Of a DNA stretch of 64,000 bases, positions 5,998 through 61,454 are shown piece after piece (position 1 is the first letter of the stretch; each line of letters opens with the position of its first letter). The notes below the pieces were generated by a model, which was given only the letters and a program-made list of their open reading frames with translations, had not been told where the DNA came from and did not search any database. Origin of the DNA: Roseomonas alba (GTDB lineage: Bacteria; Pseudomonadota; Alphaproteobacteria; Acetobacterales; Acetobacteraceae); assembly GCF_019430885.1 (NCBI RefSeq), contig NZ_JAHYBZ010000002.1, forward strand, positions 62,001-126,000. The letters run 5' to 3'. The translations under genes were made by a program, and so were the position numbers.

Positions 5998-6143
5998 GAG
6001 GTTCGCCTTCTCCGCGTCGCAAACCCTGGTGCCGCGGCGTGGAATCGTGAGGGGCCGTGCTCTGCGTCACCGATGCAAGGCAACGTGCATGGCGCCCCGC
6101 ACAGGCGGCCCTGACGACCCGTCTGCTTCCGTGGGCGAAGATC

Positions 6144-6371
6144 GGGGCGGGCGCTTGCCCTCCGAGCCACCCCGCCAGGATGCGGGGCATCCTGGACCGC
6201 AATCTGCTGGTTCCGGGCGGGAGAGCCGCTCCAGGCCCTCCCGGCGCGTTTCGGGCGCAAGGGCGGGCTTCGGCGTTCCGTCTGCCCGCGGCGCACGGCA
6301 CCAAAGGGAGGTTTGCAAAGTCCCTTCGGCTTTTGCCGGGGTGGATTGGAGGGGCAGCGTCCCTCCAATCC
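6144..6371 (-). repeat. Four-hairpin intergenic repeat, degenerate copy R1 (inverted)
   Basis: This copy fills most of the 421-bp gap between the convergent MscS and RluA genes. Read on the minus strand it holds the family hairpins in order. The clearest are CCAGGATGC with its complement at 6175-6195 (H3 position) and an 11-bp perfect stem GGATTGGAGGG/CCCTCCAATCC at 6343-6371. The H2 hairpin is eroded (around 6312-6337). The 6343-6371 stem could act as a bidirectional terminator. The rest of the gap shows no gene. Confidence 0.7.
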
Positions 6372-10304: not shown

Positions 10305-10477
10305 GTGGCGGCGGTCCTGAACTGGCGGAGGGTGGCGGGGAGGGGGCAGGACGTCAGCCAGGACGACGCCCCCGGAACCGGGGAGTGTTTGATGGCTGGT
10401 TTGGGGGAGGGGCTCAAGGGCGCAAGGCGTGAACAATGACGCGGTGAAGGCGTGTCCGTTCTGGCGGAGGCAGACCG

Positions 10478-10928
10478 GAGAGGGGCTTTGCCCCTCCCCG
10501 GACCCCACCAAAGGCCGACAGGCCTTTGGAAACCTCCACTTGGTGCTGGGCGCGACAGGCAGGTCGTAGGGCCGAAAGGTGTGTGATGCCCGCGCCATTC
10601 TCAGCACCATCACCGACCAGCGTCGTCTTGAGTACGGCCTGCTCCGCGTTGGTCGCGAGGGGGGGCTCGGCCCCTCTCGGACTCTTCTCCGCAAGGGCTG
10701 TAGCGCCCTTGCAATCTTCACCTTGGCGTCGTGCGTCGCTGGCGGGATGGCACCGCGACCTGCACTGGTGCGCAAAGCGCGCCTGGTGGGTTGAAAGCGC
10801 CTGTCGTGCCGCATGCCCAAGGACGGCGCTCCAGGTGCTCCAGCACCAGCGGCACCCGTTGGCATTGCAGAGCAAGGTCAACGGAACCCCGATGGGGAGG
10901 TAGTTGGGAGGGGCAGCGCCCCTCCAAC
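10478..10928 (+). repeat. Composite intergenic repeat R2 between corC and lnt
   Basis: The 660-bp corC-lnt gap holds no supported gene. It contains a left half-copy: H1 AGGGGC-TTT-GCCCCT at 10481-10495 and perfect H2 CCAAAGGCC-GACA-GGCCTTTGG at 10508-10529. A second, divergent copy follows: H1-like 10656-10679, H2-like GCAAGGGC/GCCCTTGC 10691-10712, an altered H3 near 10831-10850 and H4 at 10903-10928. The right part shares a module (AGCAAGGTCAA) with copy R5. It looks like two insertions of the same family, one truncated. Confidence 0.75.
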
Positions 10929-10964
10929 TTCCCTCCTCGAGCCGGAAACGGCGGCCCCGGCCGC

Positions 10965-11858: not shown

Positions 11859-11972
11859 GTGTTCATGCCTTCGGACGCCGGGCGCCGCATATCCGTGCGG
11901 CTTGGCTTCGCGCCATGCACTGCTGCATCGGCGGCAACGGGCGGGTTGGGCGCGGTCGCGCTGTGCGCTCCC

Positions 11973-11995
11973 GGATCGCGGCGGGGCCGCGATCC
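11973..11995 (-). terminator. Perfect hairpin between ybeY and corC
   Basis: A 10-bp perfect stem (GGATCGCGGC, loop GGG, GCCGCGATCC) lies in the 160-bp ybeY-corC gap. It almost duplicates the hairpin at 8106-8128. It may attenuate transcription inside the operon. Confidence 0.45.
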
Positions 11996-12018
11996 GCCAG
12001 GGGAAGGATGGCAAGGGG

Positions 12019-14955: not shown

Positions 14956-15190
14956 TCGGGTCAGGCTCCGCCGGCCTGGCCGCCAACAGGGCGGCCATGG
15001 CTGGCGGGGGAGATGCGCACCGCAGCGACGCGGGTCAAGCGACGGGGACTCCGAAGCGGGTCTTCATGAGCTGAAGCGTGACCGGCCGGTCGAGCCCGGG
15101 TCAAGCATTCCTGCGTGACATCCCGGGTGATGTCGCGCGGGGCGGGTGAGCGTCGGGTCACGCGCGGCCGGGCATGGCGGGATGGCGCCT

Positions 15191-15417
15191 CGGGAGGGAC
15201 TTTGCCTCTCCCGAACCCATCCCGGCAAAGGCCGAAAGGCCTTTGCAAACCTCGACCTGGCGCCGGATGCGACTGGCGGGCCCAGTGCCGAAAGCAGCCC
15301 ATGCACAGAGAACGCGCCGGGAAAGCATGGATTGCCCGTTCTGCCCGGCGCCAAGTGACGGTTTCCAAAGGCCTTGGGCCCTTGGCGGCGTGGTTTGGAG
15401 GGGCAGGGCCCCTCCCA
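15191..15417 (+). repeat. Four-hairpin intergenic repeat, copy R3
   Basis: It lies in the 531-bp gap between miaB and plsC, both on the minus strand. H1 is CGGGAG with complement at 15191-15213, and H2 GCAAAGGCC-GAAA-GGCCTTTGC at 15225-15246. The H3 position carries CCAAAGGCCTTGGGCCCTTGG at 15365-15385, and H4 GGAGGGGC-AGG-GCCCCTCC is within 15396-15417. The H2 stem has a compensating pair change (C to G on both sides) relative to other copies, which preserves pairing. No gene is seen in the rest of the gap. Confidence 0.75.
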
Positions 15418-15486
15418 TTGCCCAACCTCACCATGCAGTTCTGAACGCCGTCGGCACAAAATCCCGCCTGCGGGCCCTTTCCGCCG

Positions 15487-21517: not shown

Positions 21518-21628
21518 GGCATGAGGAACCATCATGGGGCCGAGCGGGTCAATGGAGGGGGCGTGCTGTTACCCCGGTATGGTGCCTGCATGGACACGAA
21601 GGGCCCGCTGATAACCCCCCGGTAGGAA

Positions 21629-21790
21629 CCGGAGGGGCGATGCCCCTCCGGACCACCCCGCCAGGTGCTTCGAGCACCTGGACCGCAGACTATAGGCGCC
21701 GGGCGGCAGGGTCGTGTTCCCCATCGAAACACCTTGCGGGCGCAAATGCGGGCTTCGGCGTCGCTTCTGCCAGGCGCGCGAAGAGTGGGG
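21629..21790 (-). repeat. Four-hairpin intergenic repeat, inverted half R4a
   Basis: Read on the minus strand this is the right half of the family. H4 is a perfect 10-bp stem CCGGAGGGGC-GAT-GCCCCTCCGG (21629-21651). H3 is a perfect 9-bp stem CCAGGTGCT-TCG-AGCACCTGG (21661-21681). The GGGCGCAAATGCGGGCTTCGG spacer-like region follows. It lies back to back with the forward copy R4b in the 640-bp LysR-YafY gap, where no gene is seen. Confidence 0.75.
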
Positions 21791-21801
21791 CAATGGTGCA
21801 T

Positions 21802-22036
21802 CGGGGAAGGGCTCTGCCTTCCCCCGAACCCCCACCCGCCAAAGGCCCAAGGCCTTTGGGAACCGTCACCTGGCGCCAGGCGCCGCCGGCAGAATGGTGC
21901 CGAGACCCGCTCCTGCGCACCAAAGGGCATTCGGCGGGGGCCAAATACCCGTTGCGCCCGGCGCCAGAAGATTGCGTTCCCAGTGCTCCAAGCACTTGGC
22001 GGGGTGTGGTTCGGAGAGGGGCGGCGCCCCTCTCCG
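21802..22036 (+). repeat. Four-hairpin intergenic repeat, forward copy R4b
   Basis: H1 is CGGGGAAGG...CCTTCCCC (21802-21826) and H2 perfect CCAAAGGCC-CAA-GGCCTTTGG (21839-21859). H3 is CCAGTGCTCCAAGCACTTGG at about 21979-21998, and H4 perfect 11-bp CGGAGAGGGGC-GGC-GCCCCTCTCCG (22012-22036). The order and spacing match the archetype R8. Confidence 0.8.
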
Positions 22037-22157
22037 ATCGCCCGCCGCGCCTTAATCGTCGCGCGCATGGGGCAACGCCCCTCCAACTCCACAGCGCAGG
22101 ACAGGGCAAGCTATCGGCCGGGGAACCGCAGAGATGAGTCGGCCTCCATTCCGGCCA

Positions 22158-26827: not shown

Positions 26828-26919
26828 GGATGGTGCGCCAGGGAGGGGCTTTGGCCTCTCTCCGGACATTGGCGACGAGGGGGCGGGTTTTGAGCGTCCC
26901 CGCTCTGCCACTGTGGAAC

Positions 26920-27191
26920 CGAGAGGGGCTTTGCCCCTCTCGGGCTCACCCCACCAAAGGCCGAAAGGCCTTTGGAAACCCCAACTTGGCGCTGTCCGCC
27001 ATTGCTGGAATGGTGACAGAATCCGCATTCGCGCACCAAGCGCGTTTGGCGGGGGCAGCACGTCCGTCGTGCCCGGTCCAGAAGATTGCGTTCCAAGTGC
27101 TCCAGGCACCAGCGGCACCCAGTAGCGTTGCGAAGCAAGGTCAATGGGAACCCGGTGGTGGGGTCGTTTGGAAGGGCAGAGCCCCTCCAAC
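26920..27191 (+). repeat. Four-hairpin intergenic repeat, copy R5
   Basis: It fills the fabF-mltG gap (449 bp, no gene seen). H1 is a perfect 10-bp stem CGAGAGGGGC-TTT-GCCCCTCTCG (26920-26942), H2 perfect CCAAAGGCC-GAAA-GGCCTTTGG (26954-26975). H3 is altered to CCAAGTGCTCCAGGCACCAG near 27093. An added module AGCAAGGTCAATGGGAACCC is at about 27135-27154, and H4 GGAAGGGCAGAGCCCCTCC near 27170-27188. A degenerate extra H1 lies at 26841-26863. Confidence 0.8.
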
Positions 27192-27276
27192 AGCGACGGT
27201 GGAAGCATCGGCGCAGTCCCAATCCTCCCACGTCAGGGGTTGAAGGGGCCGCTCTCCCCCCATATCCGGCCTTTGC

Positions 27277-38777: not shown

Positions 38778-38870
38778 CGAAGCCTCAAGGTGCGATGCGG
38801 TATGGGGGGACGGCTCTGCCCCCGAATGACGGATTGCGCAACCGGGGCCGGATGGGAGTGGAAGGGGAGT

Positions 38871-38955
38871 GGGGAGGATGGGCTCCGCCTCCCCGGACCC
38901 ACCCGCCACAGGCGGAATGGCCTGGGGAATCCTTCGTCTGGTGCTGCGCGGGCAT
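38871..38955 (+). repeat. Degenerate four-hairpin repeat, copy R6
   Basis: It lies in the 395-bp SDR-lrgB gap, where no gene is supported. H1 is GGGGAGG...CCTCCCC (38871-38894). It is followed by an eroded H2 (CCGCCACAGGCGG, 38903-38915) and the family spacer wording CTGGTGCTGCGCGG. The right half is not recognisable. Confidence 0.55.
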
Positions 38956-40381: not shown

Positions 40382-41308
40382 CGTACCCTGCGCGCCTTCG
40401 TCGAGGTCGTCCGCCAGGGCGGCTTCTCGCAGGCCGCCAAGACGCTCTTCGCGACGCAATCGGCCGTCAGCAAGGCGGTGAAGCAGCTCGAGGAAGAGGT
40501 CGGCGTCCCGCTGCTCGACCGCATCGGGCATCGCAGCACCATGACCGCGGCGGGGGAGGCGGTATATCGCCGCGCCGTGCGCCTGCTGGCCGAGCGCGAC
40601 GACCTGGGCGCGGAGATCGCCGAGATTCGCGGGCTGCAGCGGGGCGTGCTGCGCCTGGGCCTGCCGCCGATCGGGGCGGCGACGGTTTTCGCGCCGATCT
40701 TCGCCGCCTATCGCCGCCGCTATCCGGGCATCGAGATCCGCCTGGTCGAGCACGGCTCCGACCGGCTCGAGGAGGTGCTGCGCGCCGGCGACATCGAACT
40801 CGCCGCGTCGCTGCTGCCAGTCGTGGAGGATTTCGAATCGCAACCCCTGCGCTGCGAACCGCTAGTCGCCCTGCTGCCGCAGGACCACGCGCTGGCGGGC
40901 CGGGGGCGGATCGGCCTCGCCGCGCTGCGCGAGGAGCCCTTCATCCTGTTCGAGGCCGGCTTCGCGCTGAACCGCATCATCCTCGCCGCCTGCCGGCGTA
41001 TCGGGTTCGACCCGGCCGTGGCGGTGCGCAGCAGCCAGATCGACTTCATCATCGAACTGGCGGCGGCAGGGCTGGGCGTGGCCTTCCTGCCGAAGCTCAT
41101 CTCGGAGCAGCGGCCGCAGGCGCAGGTCGCGCGGCTGATGCTGGACGATCCGGCGATCGACTGGGACATGGCGATGATCTGGCGGCGCGGCGCGTTTCTG
41201 TCGCACGCGGCGCGGGCATGGCTGGAGGTGGCGAAGGAGATCGGTGAGGAGCGCCGCGCCGCCCCGAACCTCACCCGGCCAGAGGTCGGCGGTTCTCGGA
41301 GGCCGTGA
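40361..41308 (+). CDS. LysR-family regulator of lrgAB
   Basis: The protein is 315 residues from MEYRMEF, or 311 from the second ATG (MEFRTLRAF, 40373). It has the LysR HTH at about 5-65 (VVRQGGFSQAAKTLFATQSA, VSKAVKQLEEEVG). The effector domain begins near 93 (LRLGLPPIGAATVFAPIF). CidR-type LysR proteins control cid/lrg operons, so lrgAB is the likely target. The operator-like palindrome overlies its own start codons. Confidence 0.9.
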   Translation: MEYRMEFRTLRAFVEVVRQGGFSQAAKTLFATQSAVSKAVKQLEEEVGVPLLDRIGHRSTMTAAGEAVYRRAVRLLAERDDLGAEIAEIRGLQRGVLRLGLPPIGAATVFAPIFAAYRRRYPGIEIRLVEHGSDRLEEVLRAGDIELAASLLPVVEDFESQPLRCEPLVALLPQDHALAGRGRIGLAALREEPFILFEAGFALNRIILAACRRIGFDPAVAVRSSQIDFIIELAAAGLGVAFLPKLISEQRPQAQVARLMLDDPAIDWDMAMIWRRGAFLSHAARAWLEVAKEIGEERRAAPNLTRPEVGGSRRP

Positions 41309-41419
41309 GTCGTGCCGCGGCGGGGACAGGGCGCGCTGACCGTCCGCGCGGCTGGCCGGGCGAGGCGGTTTCGCTGGGCAGAATGCGGGGCGAAGACCGA
41401 TCCGGCCGGCAGCAAGTCC

Positions 41420-41520
41420 CGGTTTCCGAAGGCCCTGTGGCCGGTGGGGCCCTAAGGACCGCGCCAGGCCACGTCCGCCGGATCCCGTAGCGGGGTGGCT
41501 TGGAGGGGCGGAGCCCCTCC
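41420..41520 (+). repeat. Partial four-hairpin repeat, right end R7
   Basis: It lies in the convergent LysR-purF gap. The H3 position carries GGTTTCCGAAGGCCCTGTGG-type sequence (about 41421-41445), like copy R3. H4 is GGAGGGGC-GGA-GCCCCTCC (41502-41520), ending 5 bp before the purF stop codon. The left half is missing. H4 here could serve as the terminator of purF. Confidence 0.6.
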
Positions 41521-41525
41521 GTCCG

Positions 41526-42986
41526 TCACTGCCCGGCGGGCTGCAGCAGCGAGAGTTGCTTCTCGGCGTTGTCCTGCCAGTCCGTCAGCGGAATGGCGTA
41601 GTCCCCGGTAAAGCAGGCGTCGCAGAATTCCGGCTTGGCGGCATCGCGCGCCGGCCGCCCCAGCGCCCGGTACAGACCGTCCAGCGAGATGAACGCTAGG
41701 CTGTCCGCCCCGATGATGCGCGCCATCTCGGCGACATCGTGCTTCGCGGCCATGAGTTGCGCGCGTTCCGGCGTGTCGATGCCGTAGTAGCAGGAGTGGG
41801 TCGTGGGTGGGGAGGAGATGCGCATGTGCACCTCCTTGGCCCCCGCGGCGCGGACCATTTCCACGATCTTGCGGGAGGTGGTGCCGCGCACGATCGAATC
41901 ATCCACCAGGATGACGCGCTTGCCTTCCAGCATCGGCCGGTTCGCCGAATGCTTCAGCTTCACGCCGAGATTGCGGATCTGGTCGGTCGGCTCGATGAAG
42001 GTGCGGCCGACATAATGGTTGCGGATGATGCCGAGCTCGAAGGGGATGCCGGCCTCGGCAGCATAGCCCATGGCGGAGGGCACGCCGGAATCGGGCACCG
42101 GCACCACGACATCGGCCTCGACGCCGGATTCGCGGGCGAGTTCCACGCCGATGCGCTTGCGGGTCTCGTAGACGGGCGTGCCTTCCATCACGGAATCGGG
42201 ACGCGCGAAGTAGATGTATTCGAAGATGCAGAAGCGGCTGGCGTGCTTGCCGAAGGGCTTCACGCTGCGCACGCCGGTGTCGTCGATGACGATGATCTCA
42301 CCGGCCTCGATATCGCGGACGAATTCGGCCGAGACGATGTCGAGCGCGCAGGTTTCCGACGCCAGGACATAGCCGCCATTGGCCATGCGCCCGAGCACCA
42401 GCGGCCGCACGCCCAGCGGATCGCGTGCCCCGATCAGCGCGCCGTTGTGGAGCGCGACCAGCGAATAGGCGCCCTGGACCTGCTTGAGCGCGTCGATCAG
42501 CCGGTCGAGCACCGTCGAGTAGAGGCTGATGGCGATGAGGTGGATGAACACCTCGGAGTCCGTGGTGGACTGGAACAGGCAGCCGCGGCGGACCAGGGCG
42601 CGCTTCAGCGCGGCGGCATTGGTCAGGTTGCCGTTGTGGCCCACCGCGAAACCGCCGAACTCGAAATCGGCGTAGAGCGGCTGGACGTTGCGCAGCGCCG
42701 TCTCGCCGGTGGTGGCGTAGCGGTTGTGACCGACCGCGGCCCCGCCGCGCAGGGAAGCGATGACCTTGGCCTCGCCGAAATTGTCGCCGACCAGGCCGAG
42801 GCCCTTATGGGCGTGGAAGTGCCCGGATTCGTCGAGGGTGACGATGCCGGCCGCTTCCTGCCCGCGATGCTGGAGGGCGTGCAGGCCGAGGGCGGTCAGC
42901 GCGGCGGCATCACCCCCGTTCCACACACCGAACACGCCGCATTCCTCATGCGGCTTGTCGTCGTCCTGGTCGATGGTGGGGAGCAT
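41526..42986 (-). CDS. purF: Amidophosphoribosyltransferase
   Basis: The 486-residue protein has a short propeptide ending before Cys16 (HEECGVFG), the glutaminase nucleophile. HALQHRGQEAAGI and HNRYATTG are glutaminase landmarks, and VILVDDSIVRGTTSRKIVEM is the PRPP-binding site. PurF makes phosphoribosylamine, the first step of purine synthesis. It follows cvpA by 8 bp, the classic pair. Confidence 0.97.
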   Translation of the reverse strand: MLPTIDQDDDKPHEECGVFGVWNGGDAAALTALGLHALQHRGQEAAGIVTLDESGHFHAHKGLGLVGDNFGEAKVIASLRGGAAVGHNRYATTGETALRNVQPLYADFEFGGFAVGHNGNLTNAAALKRALVRRGCLFQSTTDSEVFIHLIAISLYSTVLDRLIDALKQVQGAYSLVALHNGALIGARDPLGVRPLVLGRMANGGYVLASETCALDIVSAEFVRDIEAGEIIVIDDTGVRSVKPFGKHASRFCIFEYIYFARPDSVMEGTPVYETRKRIGVELARESGVEADVVVPVPDSGVPSAMGYAAEAGIPFELGIIRNHYVGRTFIEPTDQIRNLGVKLKHSANRPMLEGKRVILVDDSIVRGTTSRKIVEMVRAAGAKEVHMRISSPPTTHSCYYGIDTPERAQLMAAKHDVAEMARIIGADSLAFISLDGLYRALGRPARDAAKPEFCDACFTGDYAIPLTDWQDNAEKQLSLLQPAGQ

Positions 42987-48540: not shown

Positions 48541-48573
48541 GGGCGGGCGCCGGGATGACGCAGTGACGGACAT

Positions 48574-48803
48574 GGAGAGGGGCTCTGCCCCTCTCCAGAC
48601 CTCACCCCGCCAAAGGCCACAGGGCCTTTGGAAACCATCACCTGGCGCCGTGCGCCGCCGGCAGGAAAAGCATCGAAACCCGCCTTTGCGCCCGCAGGTC
48701 GCTGCGAGGGGAACGGGGTGACCGCTCTGCCCGGCGCCAAGTTCCTGCGTTCCAAGTGCTCCAAGCACTTGGCGGGGTGGTTCGGAGGGGCAGAGCCCCT
48801 CCG
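48574..48803 (+). repeat. Four-hairpin intergenic repeat, archetype copy R8
   Basis: It is the most complete member, with four perfect stems. H1 is GGAGAGGGGC-TCT-GCCCCTCTCC (48574-48596); H2 CCAAAGGCC-ACAG-GGCCTTTGG (48610-48631); H3 CCAAGTGCT-CCA-AGCACTTGG (48752-48772); H4 CGGAGGGGC-AGA-GCCCCTCCG (48783-48803). A 120-bp spacer joins H2 to H3, and its ends carry CTGGCGCC and GGCGCCAAG, which can also pair. It occupies the 343-bp GT9-GT2 gap; no gene is seen. Confidence 0.9.
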
Positions 48804-48883
48804 ATGTCCGCCAGCGGAGGTTTCGAGCCTTTGCCGGGGTGATTTGCCGAGGCAGCGCCCATCCAACAGCAACATCGCCGGCA

Positions 48884-61399: not shown

Positions 61400-61409
61400 G
61401 ACGCTGTTG

Positions 61410-61430
61410 GAGAGGGGCAAAGCCCCTCTC
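61410..61430. terminator. Single H1-type hairpin R9 between convergent genes
   Basis: A 9-bp perfect stem GAGAGGGGC-AAA-GCCCCTCTC lies in the 55-bp gap between converging LLM and dehydratase genes. It is the H1 hairpin of the dispersed family standing alone. It probably terminates both transcripts. Confidence 0.65.
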
Positions 61431-61454
61431 TGGTCGCTATCGCCACCCCGCGTT

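Follow-up and report, generated by a model that had tools for sequence, protein, structure and literature searches.

REP, BIME and REPIN sequences are short extragenic palindromes, found in inverted pairs and at high copy number and associated with RAYT transposases. The TM_ECO/PIT motif of E. coli is present in 23 copies with 'an extraordinary degree of identity', and its single strands form triplexes in vitro that melt at 70-82 C, according to excerpts of the report by Holder et al. 2015 (PMC4666352). In the same excerpts in vivo DMS footprinting fails to reveal the triplex, a polymerase stop is seen under the assay conditions, and an earlier study is cited as having found no promoter or terminator activity (PMC4666352). 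Whether such a triplex is selected or is a by-product of the hairpin is hard to read from near-identical copies. With a variable family, in which the third strand changes along with the stem, in vivo triplex function can be tested by altering stem and third strand in a matched fashion. In the archaeal family Methanomicrobiaceae, G-rich/C-rich intergenic repeats gave an antiparallel triplex by probing (excerpts of PMC8044849). As for the Acetobacteraceae, excerpts of two papers report CGTC repeats as missing (PMC3733652) and 1,369 REPs counted by RepRanger in Lichenicola cladoniae (PMC12306157), whose genus is placed in this family in a published abstract. The RepRanger paper gives counts only, the excerpts describe no element such as the one below, and the word 'triplex' is absent from the main text; its L. 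cladoniae REPs may include elements of this kind.

Here we describe a dispersed family of inverted arm pairs in the genome of Roseomonas alba, in its genus and in other genera of the Acetobacteraceae. The repeat is real and common to many genera of one family, and its surprising part is a covariation of three strands. In the open-licence literature we found no prior description of this high-copy Roseomonas-type element. If the triplex reading set out below is true, the covariation would be evidence, at the level of sequence, for a triplex at work in living cells.

The element resembles TM_ECO/PIT in being an intergenic, G/C-rich repeat of three stretches capable of a purine-motif triplex, sometimes in inverted pairs and differing in copy number between close relatives (excerpts of PMC4666352). 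TM_ECO belongs to class II, with the third strand 3' of the purine stem, has a near-fixed consensus and lies more often upstream of genes (excerpts of PMC4666352), whereas the present element is of class I order, places two hairpins in each arm, lies at gene 3' ends and comes in many stem variants whose third strands match. The Methanomicrobiaceae repeats likewise run from G-rich to C-rich, which is class I order, but they are archaeal, have one hairpin and are termed a quadruplex sequence, and the excerpted account mentions no covariation (PMC8044849). With REP and REPIN sequences the element shares high-copy extragenic palindromes in inverted pairs; unlike them it has a third strand and resides in a genome without a Y1 transposase, and the GTAG/CGTC hairpin foot is absent from its 53-arm consensus.

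The archetype lies at 48574-48803 of the window, by which we mean the whole 64-kb stretch of DNA that was analysed. It contains four perfect stems of 10, 9, 9 and 9 bp, in the order claimed by the preliminary description, and forms an imperfect inverted repeat of itself, about 240 bp long, in which the outer hairpins are mutually inverted and the inner hairpins likewise in plan. We call each half an arm; the left and right arms lie on opposite strands and each carries two hairpins, in the order H1, third strand, H2, short third strand. The left arm reads GGAGAGGGGC TCT GCCCCTCTCC in H1, AGACCTCACCCCG in the linker and CCAAAGGCC ACAG GGCCTTTGG in H2, followed by AAACC, and the right arm has the identical plan on the other strand. 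Compared with dinucleotide shuffles, the strand folds with z -7.7 as DNA and z -6.8 as RNA, its folding energy being equalled by 0 of 200 shuffles. The features of the archetype and the other copies in the window are collected in Table 1.

Table 1. Features of the archetype and related sites in the window (window coordinates; strand and basis where assigned).
Feature	Position	Strand	Basis or remark
Archetype as nhmmer site	48564-48817		nhmmer
H1, left outer hairpin; 10-bp stem, purine 5' strand GGAGAGGGGC, triloop TCT	48574-48596	+	stem covariation
Left third strand CCTCACCCC, parallel to H1 purine strand (GGAGAGGGG)	48600-48608	+	third-strand covariation
Final linker base G	48609	+	covaries as Watson-Crick pair with middle triloop base C48585
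H2, 9-bp stem CCAAAGGCC/GGCCTTTGG, loop ACAG	48610-48631	+	stem covariation
H2 short third strand AAACC	48632-48636	+	
Spacer	48637-48746	+	stretch between H2-type hairpins 118-120 nt in 12 of 14 pairs, this genome
H3 third strand (GCGTT on +)	48747-48751	-	
H3, right-arm H2-type hairpin, CCAAGTGCT/AGCACTTGG	48752-48772	-	
C able to pair with H4 middle triloop base G48793	48773	-	
H4 third strand GGGGTGG	48774-48780	-	
H4, right-arm H1-type hairpin, 9 bp, triloop AGA	48783-48803	-	
Right-arm fragment adjoining archetype	48821-48871	+	nhmmer, 51 bp
Copy, convergent genes	6132-6371	-	nhmmer
Single left arm	10469-10582	+	nhmmer
Copy, right arm with extra hairpin module	10651-10937	+	nhmmer
Copy, H2 of GCAAAGGCC type	15190-15424	+	nhmmer
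Partial copy	21620-21779	-	nhmmer
Copy	21793-22039	+	nhmmer
Copy with extra hairpin module	26914-27194	+	nhmmer
Single degenerate arm	38866-38935	+	arm model, E 1.2e-5
Degenerate copy, convergent genes	41235-41526	+	nhmmer
Lone H1-type hairpin without third strand, linker or H2	61409-61435		in a gap of ~55 bp between two convergent genes

In the window nhmmer identifies 10 sites, one of them a fragment. Most of the positions at which recurrence had been claimed are such copies, but the one at 38.9 kb is a single degenerate arm and the one at 61.4 kb a lone hairpin. The paired H2 change noticed at 15.2 kb (GCAAAGGCC/GGCCTTTGC) is real and is one among many such variants. That the copies lie always between genes is nearly right, with 9 of 131 sites overlapping an ORF by more than 20% as judged by our own simple, uncalibrated gene caller.

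Across the genome (6.33 Mb in 28 contigs), a DNA search gave at least 67 matches from the 40 scored of 521 first-look candidates, and a model search at least 150 places, every scored place being a match. With nhmmer we found 137 sites in an 850-kb sample, a density biased by the inclusion of 40 further stretches, 38 of which were chosen for holding a top copy; without one seed per chosen stretch, 99 sites remain, extrapolating to ~740 genome-wide. The window and its two neighbours hold 18 sites (one a fragment) in 104 kb, or ~1000 genome-wide by extrapolation from a window itself picked for the element. Among 61 full copies the median identity is 74% and the closest pair is only 89% identical, and the copies are therefore not recent duplicates.

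By one conserved protein (89-91%), the nearest named genomes are Roseomonas sp. CECT 9278, Neoroseomonas alkaliterrae and N. soli, Neoroseomonas being a member of the Acetobacteraceae. Within the genus, the DNA query matched 21 of a further 22 genomes, one of them at no better than E 4.5e-4; elsewhere in the class it matched 0 of 16. First-look candidates numbered from 23 to 544 per genus genome, of which 19 were scored in each. A covariance model of one arm matched 80 of 150 genomes of the family, from 56 of 102 genera, at E<=1e-4, where the weaker matches may include chance hits in G+C-rich DNA; at E<=1e-9 it matched 19 genomes of 13 other genera. The further copies that the preliminary description proposed to look for by covariance model were accordingly found both in the genome and in its relatives. 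Presence or absence varies at four window sites, for each of which two to four relatives were compared, Roseomonas sp. CECT 9278 has no element in 10 kb at one locus, and at site D both genomes examined that lack the element hold a terminator-like hairpin in its place. At shared sites, copy identity was 0.63-0.77 in 12 of 13 comparisons (one was too short to score) against a within-genome median of 0.74. Copies at shared sites are thus no more alike than copies within one genome, and there is no sign that individual copies persist.

For stem covariation we used the best 150 of 213 arm matches, in an alignment fitted to the model; a MAFFT alignment was off by one column in several H2s, and the third strand was analysed free of alignment. 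In this fitted alignment, which favours pairing, 95.8% of stem cells are paired. Changes on both sides occupy 420 cells, against 139±11 after shuffling and at most 90 with partners slid, and 14 of 20 pairs show such a change, an extent reached in 14 of 500 shuffles. The variants of H2 include CCAAAGGCC, GCAAAGGCC, CCAGAGGCC, CCAAGTGCT, CCAAGGGCC, CCAGGATGC, CCAGGGGCT, CCAAATGAC and others, a list that gives variety and not a pairing rate, since the H2 finder requires a stem. By these counts the stems covary, and the selection on folded structure suspected at the outset is well supported, extending beyond the hairpins to the third strand and a loop contact.

When arms are compared side by side, the linker is seen to run parallel to the H1 purine strand, to track its sequence and to end flush at H2. 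Purine and linker strands pair up as AGAGGGG with TC[A/T]CCCC, GGAGGGG with CC[A/T]CCCC, GAAGGGG with CTACCCC, AGGAGGG with TCCACCC, AGAGGGA with TCTCCCT and AAGGGGG with AACCCCC. The rule tested was that G goes with C, A or T with A or T, and C with G or A. An earlier concordance test (0.928 against 0.826±0.008) had used arms picked by nhmmer with a linker-aware model, and we replaced it by arms chosen for two adjacent perfect hairpins alone, ignoring the linker. Such arms number 300; removing 100 without a purine-rich 5' strand in H1 and 12 repeats of the same place leaves 188, of which 166 with seven pure purines served for a 7-mer test and 128 unique pairs for a position test.

In the 128 unique pairs the rule is obeyed at 86.7% of positions, against 71.3±1.0 for shuffled linkers (best of 1000: 74.8), and at 83% of A positions, against 45±2.6 (best 53.8); the copies are related, so that shuffles overstate their independence. 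Other registers reach at most 53% over all positions and at most 34% at A positions. For 14 of 16 distinct purine 7-mers the commonest linker fits all seven positions (shuffles 0.9, maximum 6 in 10,000), while 2 of the 16 break the rule and 10 are represented by one or two arms each; the full fit holds in 142 of 166 arms. Obedience at A positions is 88.6% in this genome (shuffled 69.2±2.9), 90.9% in the genus (57.6±4.5) and 76.6% in other genera (31.5±4.6). The third strand of H2 is short, 3-5 nt, and H2 with the bases behind it obeys at 85.8% over three positions, against 59.6±2.2 (best shuffle 66.4).

The last base of the linker also follows the middle base of the H1 triloop. Among 184 arms with a triloop, a C-ended stem and a linker of at least 5 nt, the two bases are C-G in 102 and T-A in 59. 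In the 159 unique arms they pair in 138, against 74±5.5 shuffled (maximum 91 of 2000); loop base 1 pairs in 49 (39.5±4.4) and loop base 3 in 84 (61.7±5.2, maximum 79), a weaker association that may be a consequence of base 2. The next two linker bases have no association with the triloop in these 159 arms. The contact is present in 57 of 66 arms of this genome (30.6±3.9), 43 of 46 of the genus (22.3±3.3) and 41 of 50 of other genera (26.1±2.3), and as an alignment pair it is paired in 94.6% (C-G 82, T-A 54). A corresponding contact at the H2 loop was rejected as linkage, being seen in the genus only (34 A-T and 31 C-G among 101 arms with H2 CCAAAGGCC or GCAAAGGCC) and not in other genera.

Location and gene order were taken from this genome with our own simple gene caller. 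An element is present in 43 of 123 gaps between convergent genes, in 61 of 489 between tandem genes and in 4 of 124 between divergent genes; for gaps with at least 60 bp besides the element the counts are 29 of 69, 45 of 192 and 4 of 107. In the 61 tandem gaps the element lies at a median of 23 bp from the stop and 85 bp from the next start, nearer the 3' end in 44. Setting aside 7 overlapping pairs, 41 of 45 close arm pairs face inward, 4 point in the same direction and 0 outward. The inner hairpins are 99-119 nt apart in 16 of 18 pairs of the genus. In other genera the distance is 24-110 nt (9 pairs), and the arms there often enclose a long near-perfect palindrome, resembling a two-way terminator framed by arms (loci L178, L179, L185, L187, L189 and L196), some with A-rich and T-rich ends, most clearly L178.

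The suggestion that the element may be a processed transcript end is compatible with its location at 3' ends, but T-rich terminator tails are nearly absent. Among 3' flanks with elements, a T-run terminator is present in 1 of 86 convergent and in 0 of 61 tandem ones; among those without, in 2 of 80 and 2 of 147, a comparison of low power. The element lacks the form of an intrinsic terminator, a hairpin followed by a T tract, and T tracts are rare with and without elements.

On the complementary strand, third strand and purine strand are antiparallel; the third base is G where the stem has a G-C pair and T or A where it has an A-T pair. This is the purine-motif triplex code, given for class I as AAT, GGC, TAT (excerpts of PMC4666352). 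The element conforms to the ITxF motif, defined by three stretches of 6-15 nt, loops of 1-6 nt, at most 1 mismatch and obedience to the class code. Our own detector (stems 8-12) found 78 class I motifs in 850 kb, 74 of them inside elements, with 0 of class II and 0 in one mononucleotide shuffle, and two TM_ECO-like strings are recognized by it as class II. Only 61 of 137 sites have a class I motif of at least 8 triplets, the right arm of the archetype having 7. At A positions of the strand as written the linker base is A in 120 and T in 103 cases. Since the third strand thus carries A as often as T at A-T pairs, where a pyrimidine motif wants T alone, a DNA fold is favoured.

We infer that this fold would form on the strand ordered third strand, purine strand, loop, pyrimidine strand. 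A mirror-image strand would neither arise by ordinary copying from a palindrome nor pair Watson-Crick with the stem. The G-rich strand of an arm probably becomes single-stranded during replication, transcription, supercoiling or cruciform formation; H1 and the adjacent strand would then be likely to form a purine-motif intrastrand triplex (G.G-C, T.A-T, A.A-T), probably with a cap in which the middle triloop base pairs Watson-Crick with the end of the third strand, and H2 would likely contribute a shorter triplex. With less confidence, the symmetric element might act as a 3'-end block for both neighbouring genes, by stopping RNA polymerase, by stopping 3' decay or by absorbing supercoils between converging genes, and it might have spread via an enzyme or repair-type copying, in a spread that looks old rather than recent. 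We give this whole explanation, of capped intrastrand triplex hairpins with a 3'-end block role and an old spread, about an even chance; the in vitro triplex of the related class II motif speaks for its triplex part, and the negative in vivo DMS result for the E. coli motif counts against that part. We put less weight on a further reading, that the bacterial family has kept, at high copy number in some members, a tertiary module whose third strand would be locked to the triloop by a Watson-Crick pair and whose three strands would be rewritten together; it might be a 3'-end block working both ways or the handle for an enzyme of single-stranded DNA.

That the element is non-autonomous and mobile, akin to REP/BIME or MITE sequences, with arms read as single-stranded DNA by a transposase so that only well-folded arms move, is a possibility we entertain with some doubt. 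It would account for the inward-facing arm pairs, for the wide range of candidates per genus genome and for the presence and absence at shared sites, and 132 of the 137 sites match on both strands, as terminal inverted repeats of a MITE do. Yet Y1_Tnp (PF01797, RAYT) has 0 matches in the genome itself and is present in 1 of 35 genus genomes, none of the 61 full copies reaches near-identity with another, and no target duplication is readable, relatives being ~77-90% identical in shared genes and aligning poorly between them. Rather unlikely, in our judgement, is an RNA element: in the transcript downstream of a gene H1 and H2 would fold, the C-rich strand would occupy the H1 groove (U.A-U, C+.G-C) and touch the triloop, and the structure would protect or end the mRNA. 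The 3'-end location on transcribed sides suits it, a parallel pyrimidine strand with a loop contact is feasible in RNA too, and the palindromic spacers of some relatives, some with A- and T-rich ends, point the same way; against it stand the mixture of A and T at A-T pairs, where only U is wanted, and the scarcity of T tracts. C+ in a pyrimidine-motif triplex needs acid, a further difficulty. The acid requirement is stated for the C-rich strand of E. coli in excerpts of PMC4666352. An Rfam match, named by the preliminary description as a possible refutation, was looked for in the window, with 0 found at gathering score.

Two further alternatives address the linked changes themselves. Quasi-palindrome correction by template switching is known in bacteria and makes paired stem changes, so that mutation instead of selection could have produced the covariation of the hairpins. 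As we understand it, such correction gives inverted or direct copies, and so neither a third strand that mirrors the pyrimidine strand of the stem nor the loop contact, and we regard this origin as highly improbable. We think it equally far-fetched that the mirrored G-runs cause the linked changes by forming a G-quadruplex: the G-rich strand does have several G-runs, and archaeal repeats of similar build switch between triplex and quadruplex (excerpts of PMC8044849), but A/T positions are fixed by the rule as well, A-rich H2 obeys it while having few G-runs, and there is a loop contact that a quadruplex does not predict.

For the TM_ECO pattern CCCTCNCCC N3-6 GGGNGAGGG N3 GGGNGAGGG there are 0 exact matches in this genome and in five others of the family, whereas 75 of 398 genomes sampled across the phylum contain it. 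In 8 of 36 TM_ECO-like copies the stem has G and the third base is A, so that the third base fails to follow, and the loops of these 36 copies, in 30 loci, are nearly uniform as regards a loop contact. In other genomes of the class, a TM_ECO-like family has its stem changed to CCCTCCCCC and its third strand still GGGAGAGGG, that is, without following (loci L221 and L227-L235, in genomes G206, G232, G396, G413 and kin).

At the base of H3, a number of right arms contain an additional ~45-bp hairpin module (GGGGTCCCATTGACGTTGC...GCAACGYCAATGGGNGCCCC), as if hairpins could be added as units; it is seen in the window at 10843-10928 and 27106-27191 and at the sampled loci L016, L032, L046, L047 and L013. 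A second dispersed intergenic repeat, ~130 bp long and apparently unrelated, lies at 11860-11998 of the window, on the 5' side of a CorC/CBS-domain gene, and matches at many places in four genomes of the genus.
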